This document shows, one piece after another, positions 1,522-8,240 of a DNA stretch of 47,409 nucleotides. Origin of the DNA: an uncultured Lachnospiraceae bacterium (GTDB lineage Bacteria > Bacillota > Clostridia > Lachnospirales > Lachnospiraceae). The notes beneath the pieces were generated by a model. It had not been told where the DNA came from. It saw nothing but the letters and a program-made list of their open reading frames with translations, and made no database searches. The translations under genes and the position numbers were made by a program. Within the stretch, counting starts at the first letter, position 1, and each line of letters starts with the position of its first letter. The stretch is from NCBI GenBank assembly GCA_947626915.1, contig CANQUA010000016.1, forward strand, positions 1-47,409. Direction: 5' to 3'.

Positions 1522-2814
1522 TTACTGCTCTTTTTCGTTCAAAAGCTTATCCACGCTGACCAGCTTCACGCACAGAGCGAACAGTCCCATCGCCTCCCGC
1601 AGGTCATCCAGGGGCGGGTAAGACGGCGCGATGCGGATGTTGGAGTCATGGGGATCCTTGCCGTAGGGGTAAGTCGCTCCGGCTCCCGTCATCACCAGGC
1701 CGGCTTTCTTGCAGCGGGCCACAATGTCCTTGGCGCAGCCTTCCATGGAATCAAAAGAGATGAAATAACCGCCTCTCGGATTGGTCCAGGTGCCGATGCC
1801 CAGCCCGCCCAGCTCGCGGTTCAGGATCTCGACTACCGCTTCGAATTTTGGCCGCATGATGTCGGCGTGTTTGCGCATATGCTCCACCATTCCGTGAATA
1901 TTCTTAAAATAACGCACATGGCGGAGCTGATTCACCTTGTCATGACCGATGGTCTGGAATTTCAGCTGCTTCTTGATATCGACCAGGTTATTCTCCGAGG
2001 CCGCCAGCGCCGCAATGCCGGAGCCGGGGAAACTGATCTTGGAGGTGGACGCAAATTTGATCGCCAGGTCCGGATTGCCTGCCCGCTTACATTCCGCCAG
2101 AATCTCGATCAGATGATCCTGCCCCATATCGTAGAGATGATGAACGGTATAGGCATTGTCCCAATAGATGCGGAAATCGGCGGCTGCCGGTTTCAGACGG
2201 GCGAAACGGCGGACCACGTCATCCGAATAGGAGATGCCCGTGGGATTGGAATATTTGGGCACGCACCAGATCCCCTTGATCGAATCGTCGGAAGCCACCA
2301 GCTCCTCCACCATGTCCATATCGGGGCCGTACTCGTTCATCGGCACATTGATCATCTCGATGCCGAAATACTCGGTCATGGCGAAATGACGGTCGTAGCC
2401 GGGCACCGGGCAGAGGAATTTCACCTTGTCCAGCTTGCACCAGGGCGTACTGCCCATGACTCCGTGGGTCATGGATCGGGAAATGCTGTCAAACATGACG
2501 TTCAAACTGGAGTTGCCGTAAATAATGATCTGCTCCGGACGTACCTCCATCATGTCGGCCAGCAATTCCTTGGCCTCGCTGATGCCGTCCAGCACGCCGT
2601 AGTTGCGGCAGTCGGTGCCGTCGTCGCAGGTTAAATCCGAATCGCTGCCCAGCACATCCATCATGCCCATGGACAGATCCAGCTGATCAATGCTCGGTTT
2701 CCCTCTGGACATGTCCAGACGCAGGTCCCTGCTCTGATATTCTTTATACTCTGCTTTCAGCTCTTTGCGCAGTTCCATCAATTCTTCTTTCGTCAATTCC
2801 GCATACGGCTTCAT
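1522..2814 (-). CDS. Aspartate-type aminotransferase (PLP-dependent, fold type I)
   Basis: A 430-residue PLP enzyme resembling the bacterial aspartate aminotransferase family PF12897 rather than classical AspC. Visible features are the start-proximal RLDMSRGKP, NPTG (190-193), WDNAY (218-222) for cofactor contacts, and the Schiff-base lysine in STSKISFPGSG (Lys259). It probably interconverts oxaloacetate and aspartate with glutamate as amino donor. It is the last gene of the aspS-gatC-gatA-gatB operon, and its ATG overlaps the gatB stop by 4 bp, so it is likely translationally coupled. This placement suggests it supplies the aspartate that AspRS loads. Substrate choice is inferred from family and context; another acidic or aromatic amino acid is possible. 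Confidence 0.85.
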   Translation of the reverse strand: MKPYAELTKEELMELRKELKAEYKEYQSRDLRLDMSRGKPSIDQLDLSMGMMDVLGSDSDLTCDDGTDCRNYGVLDGISEAKELLADMMEVRPEQIIIYGNSSLNVMFDSISRSMTHGVMGSTPWCKLDKVKFLCPVPGYDRHFAMTEYFGIEMINVPMNEYGPDMDMVEELVASDDSIKGIWCVPKYSNPTGISYSDDVVRRFARLKPAAADFRIYWDNAYTVHHLYDMGQDHLIEILAECKRAGNPDLAIKFASTSKISFPGSGIAALAASENNLVDIKKQLKFQTIGHDKVNQLRHVRYFKNIHGMVEHMRKHADIMRPKFEAVVEILNRELGGLGIGTWTNPRGGYFISFDSMEGCAKDIVARCKKAGLVMTGAGATYPYGKDPHDSNIRIAPSYPPLDDLREAMGLFALCVKLVSVDKLLNEKEQ

Positions 2815-4295
2815 TCTTTGTCCTCCTTCATTTTCTCAGTACTATACCGTAAATCTGACCCGCTTGTCAACAGTTCCTTCACGATCTGATTCACTTTCGA
2901 CGGATCCGCCTTGCCTTTCATGGCCCGCATCGTCTGACCGACCAGAAATCCCATGGCCTTCGCTTTCCCATTATGATAATCCGCCACGGACTGGGGATTG
3001 GCCGCAAGGATCTCCCCGACGGTCCGGCGCAGGGCCCCCTCATCGCTGACGATCCTGAGGCCCTTCTCCTCCACATATTTCTCCGGATCCACGTCATGGG
3101 CAAAAATTTCCTCAAACACCGTTTTCGCCACCGTGCGGTTGATGGCGTTCTGATCCACCAGACCGATCAGTTTTGCCAGATTCTCCGGCGAAAACGCCAT
3201 ATCCTCCATGTCCATTTCATTTTCTTTCAGCAGACGCATGGCCTCCACCATGAGCCAGTTGGAGACCTCCTTCGGTTTCCCGCATAGGGCCGCCGTCTCC
3301 TCAAACACATCGGCCATATGCTTGGAGCTGGTCAGGATCTCCGCGTCGTAGAGCGGCAGCTGAAATTCTGTCTGGTAACGGGCCAGCTTCTCCGTCCGCA
3401 TTTCCGGCTGGCGCTCCCGGATGGCCTGGATCCACGCGTCGCTGATCACGACCGGCGTCAGATCCGGATCCGGGAAATACCGGTAATCCTGGGCGTCCTC
3501 CTTGGAACGCATCGCATAAGAGGACTCTTTGTTGTCATCCCAGCGCCGGGTCTCCTGGATCACCTTCTTCCCTTCTTCGATCCGCTCAATCTGGCGCCTG
3601 CGTTCCCCCTCGATGGCGCGGGCAATCGCTTTAAAGGAATTCAGATTCTTCATCTCCGTCCTGGTGCCCAGCTCCTGCGCGCCGGCTTCCCGGACCGAAA
3701 GATTGACGTCGGCCCGCATGGAACCTTCCTGAAGCTTACAGTCGGAAGCGCCCAGATACTGGATAATCAGACGGAGCTTTTCCAGATAGGCAATTACCTC
3801 GTCGGAACTGCGCATATCCGGCTCCGACACGATCTCGATCAGCGGAACGCCGCTGCGGTTATAGTCTACCAGGGAACAATCGTCCCATTCGTCATGGATC
3901 AGCTTTCCGGCGTCCTCCTCCATGTGGATCTCGTGAATGCCCACTTTCTTCCTGCCGGCCGCCGTCTCGATCTCCACCCAGCCGTCGCGGCAGATCGGCA
4001 GATAAAGCTGGGAGATCTGGTAGTTCTGCGGGTTATCCGGATAAAAATAATTTTTCCGGTCGAATTTGCAGTACTGGTTGACGGCGCAGTTGGTCGCCAG
4101 GCCTACGGCCAAAGCGTACTCTACCACCTGCTTATTGAGGACCGGCAGGGAACCGGGCATTCCGGTGCAGACCGGACAGGTATGGGTGTTGGGCGCGCCG
4201 CCAAACGCGGTGGAACAGCCGCAGAAGATTTTTGTTTTCGTCGCCAGCTCCACGTGGACCTCGAGGCCGATAACCGTTTCGTATTGTCTGCTCAT
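2811..4295 (-). CDS. gatB: Asp/Glu-tRNA amidotransferase subunit B
   Basis: A 494-residue GatB, the tRNA-binding and kinase-like subunit of the GatCAB amidotransferase. It phosphorylates the side chain of Asp-tRNA-Asn or Glu-tRNA-Gln before amidation. The N-terminus YETVIGLEVHVEL, the cysteine pairs CGCS and CPVC, the GMPGSLPVLN segment and the C-terminal YqeY-like tRNA-binding tail (NGKAKAMGFLVGQTMRAMKG) are all present. It overlaps gatA by 4 bp upstream and the aminotransferase by 4 bp downstream, with a strong AAAGGAGG ribosome site inside the gatA tail. Length is close to the family norm of about 475-490. Confidence 0.97.
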   Translation of the reverse strand: MSRQYETVIGLEVHVELATKTKIFCGCSTAFGGAPNTHTCPVCTGMPGSLPVLNKQVVEYALAVGLATNCAVNQYCKFDRKNYFYPDNPQNYQISQLYLPICRDGWVEIETAAGRKKVGIHEIHMEEDAGKLIHDEWDDCSLVDYNRSGVPLIEIVSEPDMRSSDEVIAYLEKLRLIIQYLGASDCKLQEGSMRADVNLSVREAGAQELGTRTEMKNLNSFKAIARAIEGERRRQIERIEEGKKVIQETRRWDDNKESSYAMRSKEDAQDYRYFPDPDLTPVVISDAWIQAIRERQPEMRTEKLARYQTEFQLPLYDAEILTSSKHMADVFEETAALCGKPKEVSNWLMVEAMRLLKENEMDMEDMAFSPENLAKLIGLVDQNAINRTVAKTVFEEIFAHDVDPEKYVEEKGLRIVSDEGALRRTVGEILAANPQSVADYHNGKAKAMGFLVGQTMRAMKGKADPSKVNQIVKELLTSGSDLRYSTEKMKEDKE

Positions 4296-5935
4296 AGCCG
4301 TGCGCCTCCTTTCCCGGTGCCGTCTGCTTTGTAACCTGTAATCTTGTCCGATGCTATACAGGCTGCTTTATCCGGTGTATAAACGCCGCCCATATATGTT
4401 CCGTCCGCACGCGCGGCGCCCGGTTCTCTGCGCCCGCTCATCCCATCGCCTGCTGCATCCCGGGCCGTCCGGACGTTCTTCGCCAGCTCCGGCTCCTGAT
4501 ACACGCGGCTCTGCTCAAACGCATAGCCCGCGCGGATAATCTTCTTCTCCTGGAAACAGTCTCCGATCAGCTGCAGACCGATCGGCAGCCCTTTCGAATC
4601 CACCGCGCAGGGCACTGTCATTCCGGGCAGCCCTGCCAGATTGACGGAAACCGTATAGATATCTCCCAGATACATTTTCAGCGGATCGCTCAGGGACTCC
4701 CCCAGCCGCGGCGCGGTAGTGGGAGCGGCCGGCCCCAGGATCACATCGAAACGTTCAAACGCCTTGTCGAAGGCTTTCTTGATCAGCGCCTTTGTGCGCA
4801 GGGCTTTCAGATAGTAGGCGTCATAGTACCCGGAACTGAGCACAAACGACCCCAGCATGATGCGCCGCTTCACCTCCGGCCCGAAGCCCTCGGAACGGCT
4901 CTTTTTATACATGGAATGCAGCCCCTCGTAATCCTTCGCCCGCAGCCCGTATTTCACGCCGTCGAACCGGGACAGGTTGGAGCTGGCTTCCGCCGACGCG
5001 ATCACGTAATAGGCGGGAATCGCGTATTCCACCAGGCTCAAATCAAACTCCTCCACGACAGCTCCTTTTTCTTCCAGAACCTTCGCCGCCGACAGGACCG
5101 CCGCTTTCACCTCCGGATCCAGTCCCTCTCCGAAATAATCCCTGGGGATCCCGATCCGCAGTCCCTGCACATCGTCCGTCAGCGCCGATGTAAAATCACA
5201 GTCCGTCCTGGGAATCGAAGTGCTGTCTTTTTTATCATAGGAAGCGATCGTTTCCAGAACCGCCGCGCAGTCGGAAACATTCTTCGCAATCGGCCCGATC
5301 TGATCCAGTGAAGAACCATAGGCAATTAGTCCGTAACGGGATACCGTGCCGTAGGTCGGCTTGATCCCCGTCACACCGCAGAAAGAGCTGGGCTGACGAA
5401 TGGAGCCGCCGGTATCGGAACCCAGGGCATAGAAACATTCGCCTGCCGCCACCGCGGCGCAGGAGCCGCCGGAGGAACCGCCCGGCACATGCTCCGGATT
5501 CCAGGGGTTCCTCGTCGCCCCGAAAGCCGATGTCTCGGTGGTGCTCCCCATGGCAAATTCGTCCATATTGGTCTTTCCCAGGATCACGGCCCCGGCCTTT
5601 TCCAGGTTCCGCACCGCCTCCGCCGTATAGGTGGGCACGAAATTGTAAAGGATCTTCGAACTGCAGGTAGTCAGGAGCCCTTCGGTGCACAGATTATCCT
5701 TGACCGCCGCCGGCACGCCCGCCAGGGGCCCGGTCAGCTCCCCGCTGTCAATCCGCTTCTGTATTTCCGCCGCTTTTTTTAAAGCGTTATCCTCATCCAC
5801 GGTCACATACGCGTGAATCTCCGGTTCCAGCGCCCCAATCTGCTCCAGGGATGCTTTCGCCGCTTCCGCAACGCCGATCTCGCCGCTTTTTATCTTTCTG
5901 CCCAGCTCCAGGGCAGTCATTTCCCAAATTTTCAC
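4292..5935 (-). CDS. gatA: Asp/Glu-tRNA amidotransferase subunit A, with unusual C-terminal tail
   Basis: GatA is the amidase subunit that releases ammonia from glutamine for tRNA amidation. The Ser-cisSer-Lys triad of the amidase signature family is visible: Lys79 (AAVKDN), Ser154 (PGGSSGGS) and Ser178 (GSDTGGS). The family norm is about 485 residues; this protein has 547. Family-like sequence ends around QEPELAKN and is followed by roughly 58 Gly/Ala/Asp-rich residues resembling translated intergenic DNA. Despite this the stop still overlaps the gatB ATG by 4 bp. Loss of the original stop is the simplest explanation, so the tail may have no function. It follows gatC after 48 bases. Confidence 0.97.
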   Translation of the reverse strand: MKIWEMTALELGRKIKSGEIGVAEAAKASLEQIGALEPEIHAYVTVDEDNALKKAAEIQKRIDSGELTGPLAGVPAAVKDNLCTEGLLTTCSSKILYNFVPTYTAEAVRNLEKAGAVILGKTNMDEFAMGSTTETSAFGATRNPWNPEHVPGGSSGGSCAAVAAGECFYALGSDTGGSIRQPSSFCGVTGIKPTYGTVSRYGLIAYGSSLDQIGPIAKNVSDCAAVLETIASYDKKDSTSIPRTDCDFTSALTDDVQGLRIGIPRDYFGEGLDPEVKAAVLSAAKVLEEKGAVVEEFDLSLVEYAIPAYYVIASAEASSNLSRFDGVKYGLRAKDYEGLHSMYKKSRSEGFGPEVKRRIMLGSFVLSSGYYDAYYLKALRTKALIKKAFDKAFERFDVILGPAAPTTAPRLGESLSDPLKMYLGDIYTVSVNLAGLPGMTVPCAVDSKGLPIGLQLIGDCFQEKKIIRAGYAFEQSRVYQEPELAKNVRTARDAAGDGMSGRREPGAARADGTYMGGVYTPDKAACIASDKITGYKADGTGKGGARL

Positions 5936-5983: not shown

Positions 5984-6277
5984 TCACTCCACCGTCTTCG
6001 GCACCTTGAACGATCCGTCCTTCTGCTCCGGCGCGTTTTTCAGAATCTTCTCCCTCTCGTCGCCGTTGGTCACCACGTCCTCCCGAAACACATTGTGCAT
6101 CGCAAACACATGGGACATGGGTTCCACCCCGCCGGTATCCAATTCATTCAGCATATCGATATAGTCCAGCATCCGCCCCATATCTTTTTTCGCTTCCTCT
6201 TTCTCCTCCCCGGACAATTCCAGCTTCGCCAGGATCCCTACATATTCAATGGTCTCGTCGCTGATCACATTCGCCAT
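5984..6277 (-). CDS. gatC: Asp/Glu-tRNA amidotransferase subunit C
   Basis: A 97-residue GatC, the small linker that wraps GatA and GatB. Typical features are the N-terminal [17 protein letters not shown] helix, the central [20 protein letters not shown] and the C-terminal REDVVTNGD...[21 protein letters not shown] place the start at 6277 because GGGGGAAG lies 7-8 bases upstream; the frame stays open to 6301. It lies 122 bases after aspS and precedes gatA. Confidence 0.96.
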
Positions 6278-6312
6278 CGTCGCTTCCCCCTTTTCTGTCA
6301 AAATACCGCCGG

Positions 6313-6399: not shown

Positions 6400-7731
6400 T
6401 TACGGTTCCAGGCGGATCACATCCCTCGGGAACAGGGACGCTTCCCGCACATTCTGTTCGCCCAGAAGCCGCATGGTCAGCCGTTCCAGACCGATGCCCA
6501 GACCGCCGTGGGGCGGCATCCCGTATTTGAAAATCATCAGATAGGACTCAATATCCGCCGGGTCCATGCCGCGCTTCTCCATTTTCCGCAGTATTTCACC
6601 GTAATCATGGATCCGCTGGCCGCCGGTCGTCACCTCCAGCCCCCGAAACAGCAGGTCGAAGCTCAGCGTAAAACGGCTGTCCTGCGGGTCGTCCATTGCA
6701 TAGAACGGCCGCTTTTTCGACGGGTAATGGGTCACAAACACGAAATCGCTGCCATATTCTTCCTGGAAATACCTGCCGATCAGCAGCTCCTCCTCCGGCT
6801 CTAAATCGTAAGGATTCCGTATCCTGCGGTTATATTTCTCCGCCGCCAGTTCCTTGGCCCGGTCGAAACGCACCGCCGGGATATGGCTCACATCCGGCAG
6901 CCGGACCTCCAGAAGCTCCAGCTCTTTTTTATATTCTCTTTCCAAAAGGGCCATGGTATACTGCAGAAACCCGGTTTCCATCGCCATGATCTCTTCGAAG
7001 CTGTCAATATAGCCCATCTCAAAATCCAGGCTCACATATTCATTTAAATGACGGGTCGTATTATGCTTCTCCGCGCGGAACACGGGGGCTGTTTCAAAAA
7101 CCCGGTCATAAACCCCTACCATGGTCTGCTTATAAAACTGGGGACTCTGTCCCAGCTCCGCTTTTTTATTAAAATAGTCCAGCCGGAACACATTGGAGCC
7201 GCCCTCCGCGCCGCGGGCCACGATCTTCGGCGTATGGACCTCCGTAAAGCCCTGGCTCATCAGAAACTCCCGGAAGCCGCGCACGATTCCCTCCTGCAGT
7301 TTGAATTTGGCCCGCTCACGGACATTCCGCAGGGAAACGGGACGCAGGGCCAGCTTCGCCTCCAGCGACGTGCGCATTTTATATTTATTCACAGCCAGCG
7401 GCAGCACCTCCGCCGGTTCGGACAGCACCGAAAGCGTCTCCAGACGCAGTTCAAAACCGTTGGGCGCCCGTTTTTCCGGCGTCACCCTGCCGGACACCTC
7501 CACTGCCGATTCCTCTTTTAAATCTTTCAGACTGAACCCGGCGGTTCCCTTCTCATAAACGCACTGGACCAGCCCTTCCGCTTTCCGGAGAATGATGAAA
7601 GCCACCTCTCCCATGTCCCTGACATTATGAACCGCGCCGCGCATTTTTATGGTTTTGCCCGCATAATCGCCGCTTAACACCGCGCTGACCGACAGATCTT
7701 CCTTCTCTCTTACTCCCTCGATGAATTCCAT
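6400..7731 (-). CDS. aspS: Archaeal-type, probably non-discriminating aspartyl-tRNA synthetase
   Basis: A 443-residue class IIb synthetase. It has an N-terminal OB-fold anticodon domain (about 20-105), the motif 2 region FRAEKHNTTRHLNEY, and motif 3 GGLGIGLERLTMRLLG near 409-424. It lacks the GAD insertion of the ~590-residue bacterial AspRS, so it belongs to the shorter archaeal/eukaryal-like type (AspRS2). In bacteria this type generally charges both tRNA-Asp and tRNA-Asn with aspartate. It heads the operon containing GatCAB, which converts Asp-tRNA-Asn to Asn-tRNA-Asn. The start at 7731 is set by AGGAGG 7 bases upstream; the frame is open 72 codons further but those codons lie in the leader. 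Control is by the T-box upstream. Non-discrimination is inferred, not visible in one residue. Confidence 0.93.
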   Translation of the reverse strand: MEFIEGVREKEDLSVSAVLSGDYAGKTIKMRGAVHNVRDMGEVAFIILRKAEGLVQCVYEKGTAGFSLKDLKEESAVEVSGRVTPEKRAPNGFELRLETLSVLSEPAEVLPLAVNKYKMRTSLEAKLALRPVSLRNVRERAKFKLQEGIVRGFREFLMSQGFTEVHTPKIVARGAEGGSNVFRLDYFNKKAELGQSPQFYKQTMVGVYDRVFETAPVFRAEKHNTTRHLNEYVSLDFEMGYIDSFEEIMAMETGFLQYTMALLEREYKKELELLEVRLPDVSHIPAVRFDRAKELAAEKYNRRIRNPYDLEPEEELLIGRYFQEEYGSDFVFVTHYPSKKRPFYAMDDPQDSRFTLSFDLLFRGLEVTTGGQRIHDYGEILRKMEKRGMDPADIESYLMIFKYGMPPHGGLGIGLERLTMRLLGEQNVREASLFPRDVIRLEP

Positions 7732-7918: not shown

Positions 7919-7959
7919 AAAAAAACCGTCTCGGAATACTTTCGCATATTCCGGGACGG
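7919..7959 (-). terminator. T-box conditional terminator
   Basis: Stem CCGTCCCGGAATA / TATTCCGAGACGG (minus strand) with loop TGCGAAAG, followed by seven T. Its 5' arm can compete with the antiterminator formed around the T-box motif. Confidence 0.9.
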
Positions 7960-8205
7960 GACATATCATCTCTGCAGATCCCGCGGTACCACCCGCTTTG
8001 AGACCGTCCGCAGCCGAAGCCGCGCGTCTCCTCTCTTTTGCACGTAACGTGTGCCGACGGACATGCCTACTGTGTTTCGACATACCGGCTCCGGAGTGTT
8101 CCCTTCGCCATTTCCACCCTGACGGCGCTCTCAGTCGGTGACGCCCTCTTCCTGTCGGCCTCCCTGGCAAGAGTCTCTTTCTCAGCCATTGCGCTTAAAA
8201 AATAT
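7919..8205 (-). promoter_or_regulatory. T-box riboswitch upstream of aspS-gatCAB (candidate GAAC two-codon specifier)
   Basis: The minus strand carries the T-box motif GGGTGGTACCGCGG (7981-7994), followed by a terminator hairpin (7926-7959; 13-bp arms with one mismatch) and a T7 run. Upstream, a plausible Stem I can be drawn: basal GGCU/AGCC with a K-turn-like UGA/GGA region, then a helix UUGCCA/UGGCGA, with GGGAACA on the 3' side where the specifier lies. This region contains GAAC (8098-8101), overlapping GAA (Glu) and AAC (Asn), and no GAC (Asp). A two-codon T-box of this type has been described for a Clostridium acetobutylicum tRNA-amidation operon. The leader presumably allows read-through when tRNA-Asn (and perhaps tRNA-Glu) is uncharged. 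The fold was done by eye. Confidence 0.9.
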
Positions 8206-8211
8206 GAGTGA

Positions 8212-8240
8212 ATAATAACACAATATTTTATCGGTTTCAA
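8212..8240 (-). promoter_or_regulatory. Sigma-A promoter of the aspS-gatCAB operon
   Basis: TTGAAA (8235-8240), a 17-bp spacer and TATTAT (8212-8217) on the minus strand. Transcription should start near 8205, giving a leader of about 475 bases that contains the whole T-box. Confidence 0.8.

Follow-up and report, generated by a model that had tools for sequence, protein, structure and literature searches.

A putative tRNA-Asn-sensing T-box leader without a Stem I S-turn ahead of an aspS2-gatCAB operon in a Lachnospiraceae bacterium

The leader that precedes the aspS2-gatCAB operon in the window, that is, in the whole stretch of 47,409 nucleotides analysed here from an uncultured Lachnospiraceae bacterium, is in our judgement likely to be a T-box riboswitch that acts on transcription, works through AAC as its specifier and senses uncharged tRNA-Asn ahead of an asparagine-making operon. 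This reading draws on features of the sequence, namely the T-box itself, an AAC triplet flanked by a helix that covaries, the terminator, the gene order and conservation. Uncharged tRNA-Asn would pair through its anticodon with AAC in Stem I and through its GCCA end with the bulge UGGU; the bound tRNA would stabilise the antiterminator and let transcription proceed into aspS2, gatCAB and an aspartate aminotransferase gene. A shortage of asparagine would in this way switch on the formation of aspartate, the aspartylation of tRNA-Asn and its amidation. Since the genes make aspartate, load tRNA-Asn and amidate it, the operon can be viewed as a tRNA-dependent asparagine supply.

The leader and its operon

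A covariance-model search with RF00230 located a T-box leader at 7949-8198 on the minus strand, on which all features described here lie. The match, read from 8198 to 7949, covered the model in full (1-219) with an E-value of 5.2e-11 and 56.7 bits, the Rfam gathering score being 93. Nine T-boxes were found in the host genome and none of them reached 93 bits (top score 92.3). A putative sigma-70-like promoter, TTGAAA-N17-TATTAT, was read directly at 8212-8240 as a match to the consensus. The RF00230 alignment delineated the apical Stem I elements AGGAAGA ... ACUGAGA (8124-8153), which are similar across the genus members and presumably form the double T-loop, so named after the established T-box anatomy, in which this part of Stem I stacks on the tRNA elbow. 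It also delineated Stem II with its S-turn, GAA / AGUA (8062-8086), the Stem IIA/B pseudoknot region ACGUUACGUGC (8040-8060), Stem III, GAGAC ... GUCUC followed by AA (7998-8035), and the T-box sequence that forms the antiterminator 5' arm and carries the bulge UGGU (7979-7998). A strong intrinsic terminator, CCGUCCCGGAAUAU...GUAUUCCGAGACGG-U7 (7919-7959), overlaps the antiterminator 3' arm (7962-7952), and the antiterminator with its UGGN bulge is mutually exclusive with it. The terminator fold (7998-7918) gave a z-score of -2.46, with 4 of 200 shuffles equally stable. For Stem I as a single sequence, the minimum free energy (MFE) fold failed to reproduce the T-box architecture (z +1.0). A clear T-box with a terminator was also what the sequence-only reading of this DNA had proposed, and its placement of the leader ahead of aspS-gatCAB agrees with the profile matches downstream.

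These matches identified, in this order, aspS2, gatC, gatA, gatB and an aspartate aminotransferase gene. aspS2 (6400-7731) encodes an archaeal-type non-discriminating AspRS, with scores as aspartate--tRNA(Asn) ligase of 564.6 bits (cut-off 353) and 404.9 bits (cut-off 368.4). It is followed by gatC (5984-6301; TIGR00135, 95.1 bits, cut-off 47.1), gatA (4292-5935; TIGR00132, 619 bits, cut-off 481.1) and gatB (2811-4295; TIGR00133, 589.3 bits, cut-off 314.8). The aspartate aminotransferase gene (1522-2814), of type Ic and Rv3722c-like (NF053594, 670.1 bits, cut-off 435), shares its first bases with the end of gatB and probably belongs to the operon. The same gene follows gatB in 10 named relatives as well, an arrangement that fits the pathway from Asp to Asn.

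An argument made from the letters alone, according to which the amidated products of both tRNAs become possible through this operon, proved weak in the host. Its genome encodes a GlnRS (715 bits, cut-off 425.8), an AsnRS (687.6 bits, cut-off 414) and, besides aspS2, a bacterial-type AspRS (865.4 bits, cut-off 443), with a single copy of gatB. GlnRS was found in 61 of 64 sampled genomes with Asn-type leaders, the three without it being G061, G072 and G575. With GlnRS, AsnRS and only one gatB encoded in the host, and with GlnRS so widespread among the sampled genomes, the operon is not needed for Gln-tRNA and so is not required for both Asn-tRNA and Gln-tRNA. GatCAB and the tRNA-Asn-charging AspRS of the host most likely serve asparagine only; wherever GlnRS coexists with these two enzymes, in the host (G000) as in the 61 sampled genomes, GatCAB looks dedicated to Asn.

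Reading frame of the specifier loop

Homologues of aspS2 were collected from overlapping samples, close ones in 24 of 26 genomes of the genus and others in 53 of 150 of the family, 86 of 294 of the order and 49 of 393 of the class. The survey totalled 279 aspS2 loci, including 80 named loci, among which that of Clostridium acetobutylicum did not appear. A T-box core was detected by pattern in 167 of the 279, the 112 loci without a core being excluded, and it was present in all 24 genus members where aspS2 was found. The 164 classified leaders consist of 163 of these 167 and of L294, whose core was missed by the pattern and which was added by hand; four leaders with a core and an unreadable Stem I (L021, L302, L312 and L352) were excluded. 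They divide into 106 Asn-type leaders without the Stem I S-turn, 42 Asn-type leaders with it and 16 Asp-type leaders (specifier GAC). In the S-turn-less class, 103 leaders were read automatically (91 of the 103 segments are distinct) and L085, L123 and L149 by hand, while 15 Asp-type leaders were extracted automatically and L171 by eye. Some leaders of aspS also have two successive T-box cores, observed by pattern in L280, L283, L299, L306, L307, L311, L315, L358, L253, L257 and L259 and by eye in L309. Where measured, they lie about 60 to 175 bases apart, seemingly too short a distance for a second Stem I (only L309 was read through), and they perhaps represent one tRNA-binding stem with two antiterminator/terminator modules. 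In L027-L033, the aspS2 match is split near query residues 62-99, which suggests that the gene of this subclade carries a small in-frame insertion.

In the window, the 3' strand of the specifier loop reads GGGAACA (8097-8103) and contains GAAC at 8101-8098. GAAC holds two overlapping triplets, AAC (Asn) at 8098-8100 and, in frame -1, GAA (Glu) at 8099-8101. The loop is followed, after AAC-A, by a helix whose 5' strand is AGAG (8175-8178; GGAG in most relatives of the class) and whose 3' strand is CUCC (8093-8096). Among the 103 leaders, this helix occurs in the fully paired sets GGAG:CUCC, AGAG:CUCU, CAAG:CUUG, GGAA:UUCC, GAAG:CUUC, CGGG:CCCG and CCAG:CUGG. Its four positions are paired in 94, 102, 103 and 103 of 103 leaders, and none of 2000 shuffles reached any of these values; at the outermost pair all nine unpaired cases are A.C, the window included. 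The available part of the TBDB paper gives the specifier as the bases two to four before the loop end. Since the covarying helix abuts AAC-A, this rule designates AAC, one base ahead of the helix, as the triplet predicted to be read in the standard position, with GAA lying one base 5' of it. The Rfam alignment had paired UGAG with CUCC in the lower helix, a register that we rejected, as covariation backs AGAG (8178-8175) with CUCC (8096-8093). The covariance model, which the sequence-only reading had put forward as the means to place the specifier, thus located the T-box, whereas its lower-helix register was overruled. The GAAC noticed in that reading is borne out by direct reading and its placement as specifier by the helix; GAC is absent from the 3' strand of the loop, as had been stated, and the specifier did not turn out to lie at a GAC.

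The 5' strand of the loop, ACUC (8171-8174), lacks AGUA, which implies that Stem I of the window has no S-turn (AGUA/GAA) above the specifier, where this element is usual and perhaps dispensable; the S-turn of Stem II is present. AGUA is missing from this strand in all 106 leaders of the class, window included. ACUC was found in 87 of the 103 automatically read leaders and variants of it in the others, and the 3' side is usually GGGAACA. Within the loop, C8173 could pair with G8101, and a pair of this type can be formed in 101 of the 103 leaders. Compensated changes suggest that the upper helix extends as far as position -2. In the two pairs immediately above, L121 has both partners changed, giving G:C at loop positions 3:-2 and A:U at 4:-3; L335 has C:G at 3:-2, and at 4:-3 five leaders carry U:A and 8 of 103 have no pair. 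With the upper helix extending this far, C8173 and G8101 would form the pair that comes next, which would close the loop and keep the G out of reach of tRNA-Glu. The pair itself is not proven by covariation, because L121 and L335 lost the G and yet keep the C. An obligatory C8173-G8101 pair was considered and dropped, these two leaders showing C.C.

The conserved G, the bulge base and rival readings

GAAC, on which the sequence-only reading had centred, is conserved among homologous leaders, being kept in 143 of 148 of the Asn type. Four letters in isolation would be trivial, which their conservation is not. Immediately before AAC, 101 of the 103 automatically read S-turn-less leaders have G and two have C (G in 104 of 106 with the hand additions); of the 42 S-turn leaders, 39 have G, two U and one A, and here the G stays beside AAC with either a one-base or a two-base linker after the S-turn GAA. 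In the 16 Asp-type leaders, the base before GAC is A in 14, G in 1 and C in 1, and other T-boxes with a one-base linker carry G at the same place in 9 of 22 cases by strict count (10 of 23 including L007, read by eye). Fisher tests on the frequency of G gave p values of 1e-5 against other T-boxes and 4e-10 against the Asp type, which overstate the evidence because the leaders share kinship. G was lost in five of the 148 leaders (L121, L335, L231, L232 and L286), all of which kept AAC, the triplet that itself defined class membership. The specifier follows the gene context: among the Asn-type loci that could be checked, at least one gat gene is adjacent in 91 of the 95 that lack the S-turn and in all 30 that have it, hence in 121 of 125 overall, compared with 0 of 16 GAC loci. 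The four Asn-type exceptions are L082, with none in the 1.5 kb downstream, and L091, L150 and L336, where the sequence ends soon after aspS. That gatCAB occurs with AAC and never with GAC supports the sensing of tRNA-Asn.

The host tRNA-Asn ends in G73 and its tRNA-Glu in A73. The readable tRNA genes, inspected by eye, gave G73 for tRNA-Asn and A73 for tRNA-Glu(UUC), and A73 was not seen in two secondary tRNA-Glu(CUC) matches (L417 and L418). The U of UGGU pairs with A73 in Watson-Crick fashion and with G73 by wobble. The supposition that this U would favour A73 or a G-U pair is therefore consistent with the tRNAs of the host, but the base does not discriminate: compatible with both tRNAs, it is not diagnostic. 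Of the 105 S-turn-less leaders for which a core was called, 99 carry U in the bulge, and U is dominant only in this class, as the S-turn Asn-type leaders split into U 28, C 13 and A 1 (L294). U also occupies this place in the first core of 9 of the 16 Asp-type leaders and, under a loose pattern, in six of nine Trp leaders with a single core match, the other three having C (two) or G (one). The TBDB paper, in its available part, reports U in 46% of Trp T-boxes despite G in their tRNAs. We consequently rejected the notion that UGGU proves Glu sensing, since UGGU is frequent both in Trp leaders and in those of the Asp type, and the tRNAs of both carry G73. Both Trp T-boxes of the host genome (L002 and L004) have UGGC, as opposed to the UGGU of six of the nine relatives' Trp leaders. 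Among Asn-type leaders, all 19 with UGGC (6 S-turn-less and 13 S-turn) keep the G and all five G-less leaders have UGGU, so that the kept G and the bulge base are uncoupled.

A T-box with two codons, which the sequence-only reading had put forward as possible and in which tRNA-Asn reads AAC, tRNA-Glu reads GAA through a one-base shift and UGGU takes both G73 and A73, would explain why GAAC persists across two loop architectures and why G is so much more frequent in S-turn leaders than in Asp-type leaders or other one-base-linker T-boxes. The end bases of tRNA-Glu(UUC) and tRNA-Asn, together with the prevalent U bulge, would suit it, overlapping Glu and Asn codons do lie in a loop ahead of an amidation operon, and a precedent is described for the transamidation operon of Clostridium acetobutylicum in the accessible parts of PMC4052509, PMC7778990 and PMC4206432. 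We nevertheless regard it as possible but less likely in the window, since GlnRS is present in the host and nearly all sampled Asn-type genomes, UGGC cannot pair with A73 and yet always accompanies the G, U is shared with most Asp-type leaders, and C8173 can pair with G8101 below a helix that covaries down to the neighbouring pair. Sensing of tRNA-Asn alone has difficulties of its own: the G is also kept in the S-turn class, where it has no visible C partner, and with linkers of either length, while Asp-type leaders mostly have A at this place; a purely Asn-directed reading leaves this unexplained, and G73 is matched better by UGGC than by UGGU. Under the reading through AAC that we favour, the G is probably retained chiefly because it shapes the loop or helps tRNA-Asn to fit, and reading of GAA by tRNA-Glu is possible as a secondary property. 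Rather improbable, in our estimate, is a lineage-wide T-box variant in which the missing Stem I S-turn loosens the register, GAAC is read in two frames by tRNA-Asn and tRNA-Glu, and U accepts both end bases; two-frame sensing in spite of GlnRS would then weigh the Asp/Asn branch against the glutamate pool instead of supplying Gln-tRNA.

The remaining explanations carry very little weight. An Rfam score below the gathering cut-off, the A.C mismatch in the outermost helix pair and a Stem I MFE no better than that of shuffles are what a degenerate or non-functional relic might display, but every domain is present, the terminator is intact, the core is retained throughout the genus members with the gene and the eight further T-boxes of the host likewise score below the cut-off, making decay very improbable. 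Hardly credible either is a switch that responds to tRNA-Asp or tRNA-Gly by way of a different triplet, such as the GGA/GGG upstream of AAC suggested by the raw Rfam alignment with its two unaligned letters ahead of the lower helix: the covarying helix pins AAC-A beside it, the second base upstream of AAC, a G in the window, is variable (A in L325, L351 and L149, C in L121), and Asp leaders elsewhere carry plain GAC.

Relation to known T-boxes

The 148 Asn-type and 16 Asp-type leaders constitute a large natural series. Its specifier changes together with the set of genes, and it offers clean single-base tests of two-tRNA reading by a T-box. A need for Gln-tRNA as the rationale for dual sensing fails in most of the sampled carriers, GlnRS being present, and an S-turn-less loop with a covarying flanking helix bears on how T-boxes set their reading frame.

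A two-codon T-box in the transamidation operon of C. acetobutylicum was reportedly presented by Saad et al. in 2013. Compared by description only, it likewise stands ahead of a tRNA-dependent amidation operon, and the window differs in that its host has GlnRS, its loop lacks the S-turn and dual binding is here only a candidate. Both T-boxes in general and one that reads two codons ahead of a transamidation operon are thus already known from the available parts of the literature; less usual, it seems, is the lineage-wide absence of the Stem I S-turn with GAAC preserved, and a limited literature search, a thin basis, found no published description of an S-turn-less Asn specifier loop. The Stem I S-turn is presented in the accessible part of PMC7583486 as an element that avoids clashes with tRNA modifications.

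The closest counterparts are the 42 S-turn Asn-type T-boxes of aspS2-gatCAB (Clostridium, a Tissierellales MAG, another family of the same order and others), which share AAC beside the helix, the G before it and, at all 30 loci checked, the same operon; they carry AGUA/GAA and one or two nucleotides before AAC, whereas the class of the window has ACUC, or a variant, and GGGAACA. The 16 Asp-type aspS T-boxes (Clostridium, Paenibacillus and others) have a homologous AspRS gene and a T-box like that of the window, but differ in their GAC specifier, the A that mostly precedes it and the lack of adjacent gatCAB. With canonical RF00230 leaders the window shares Stem I with a K-turn-like bulge and apical loops, the Stem II S-turn, Stem IIA/B, Stem III, the UGGN bulge and the terminator, and it departs from them in lacking the Stem I S-turn and in scoring below the curated cut-off.
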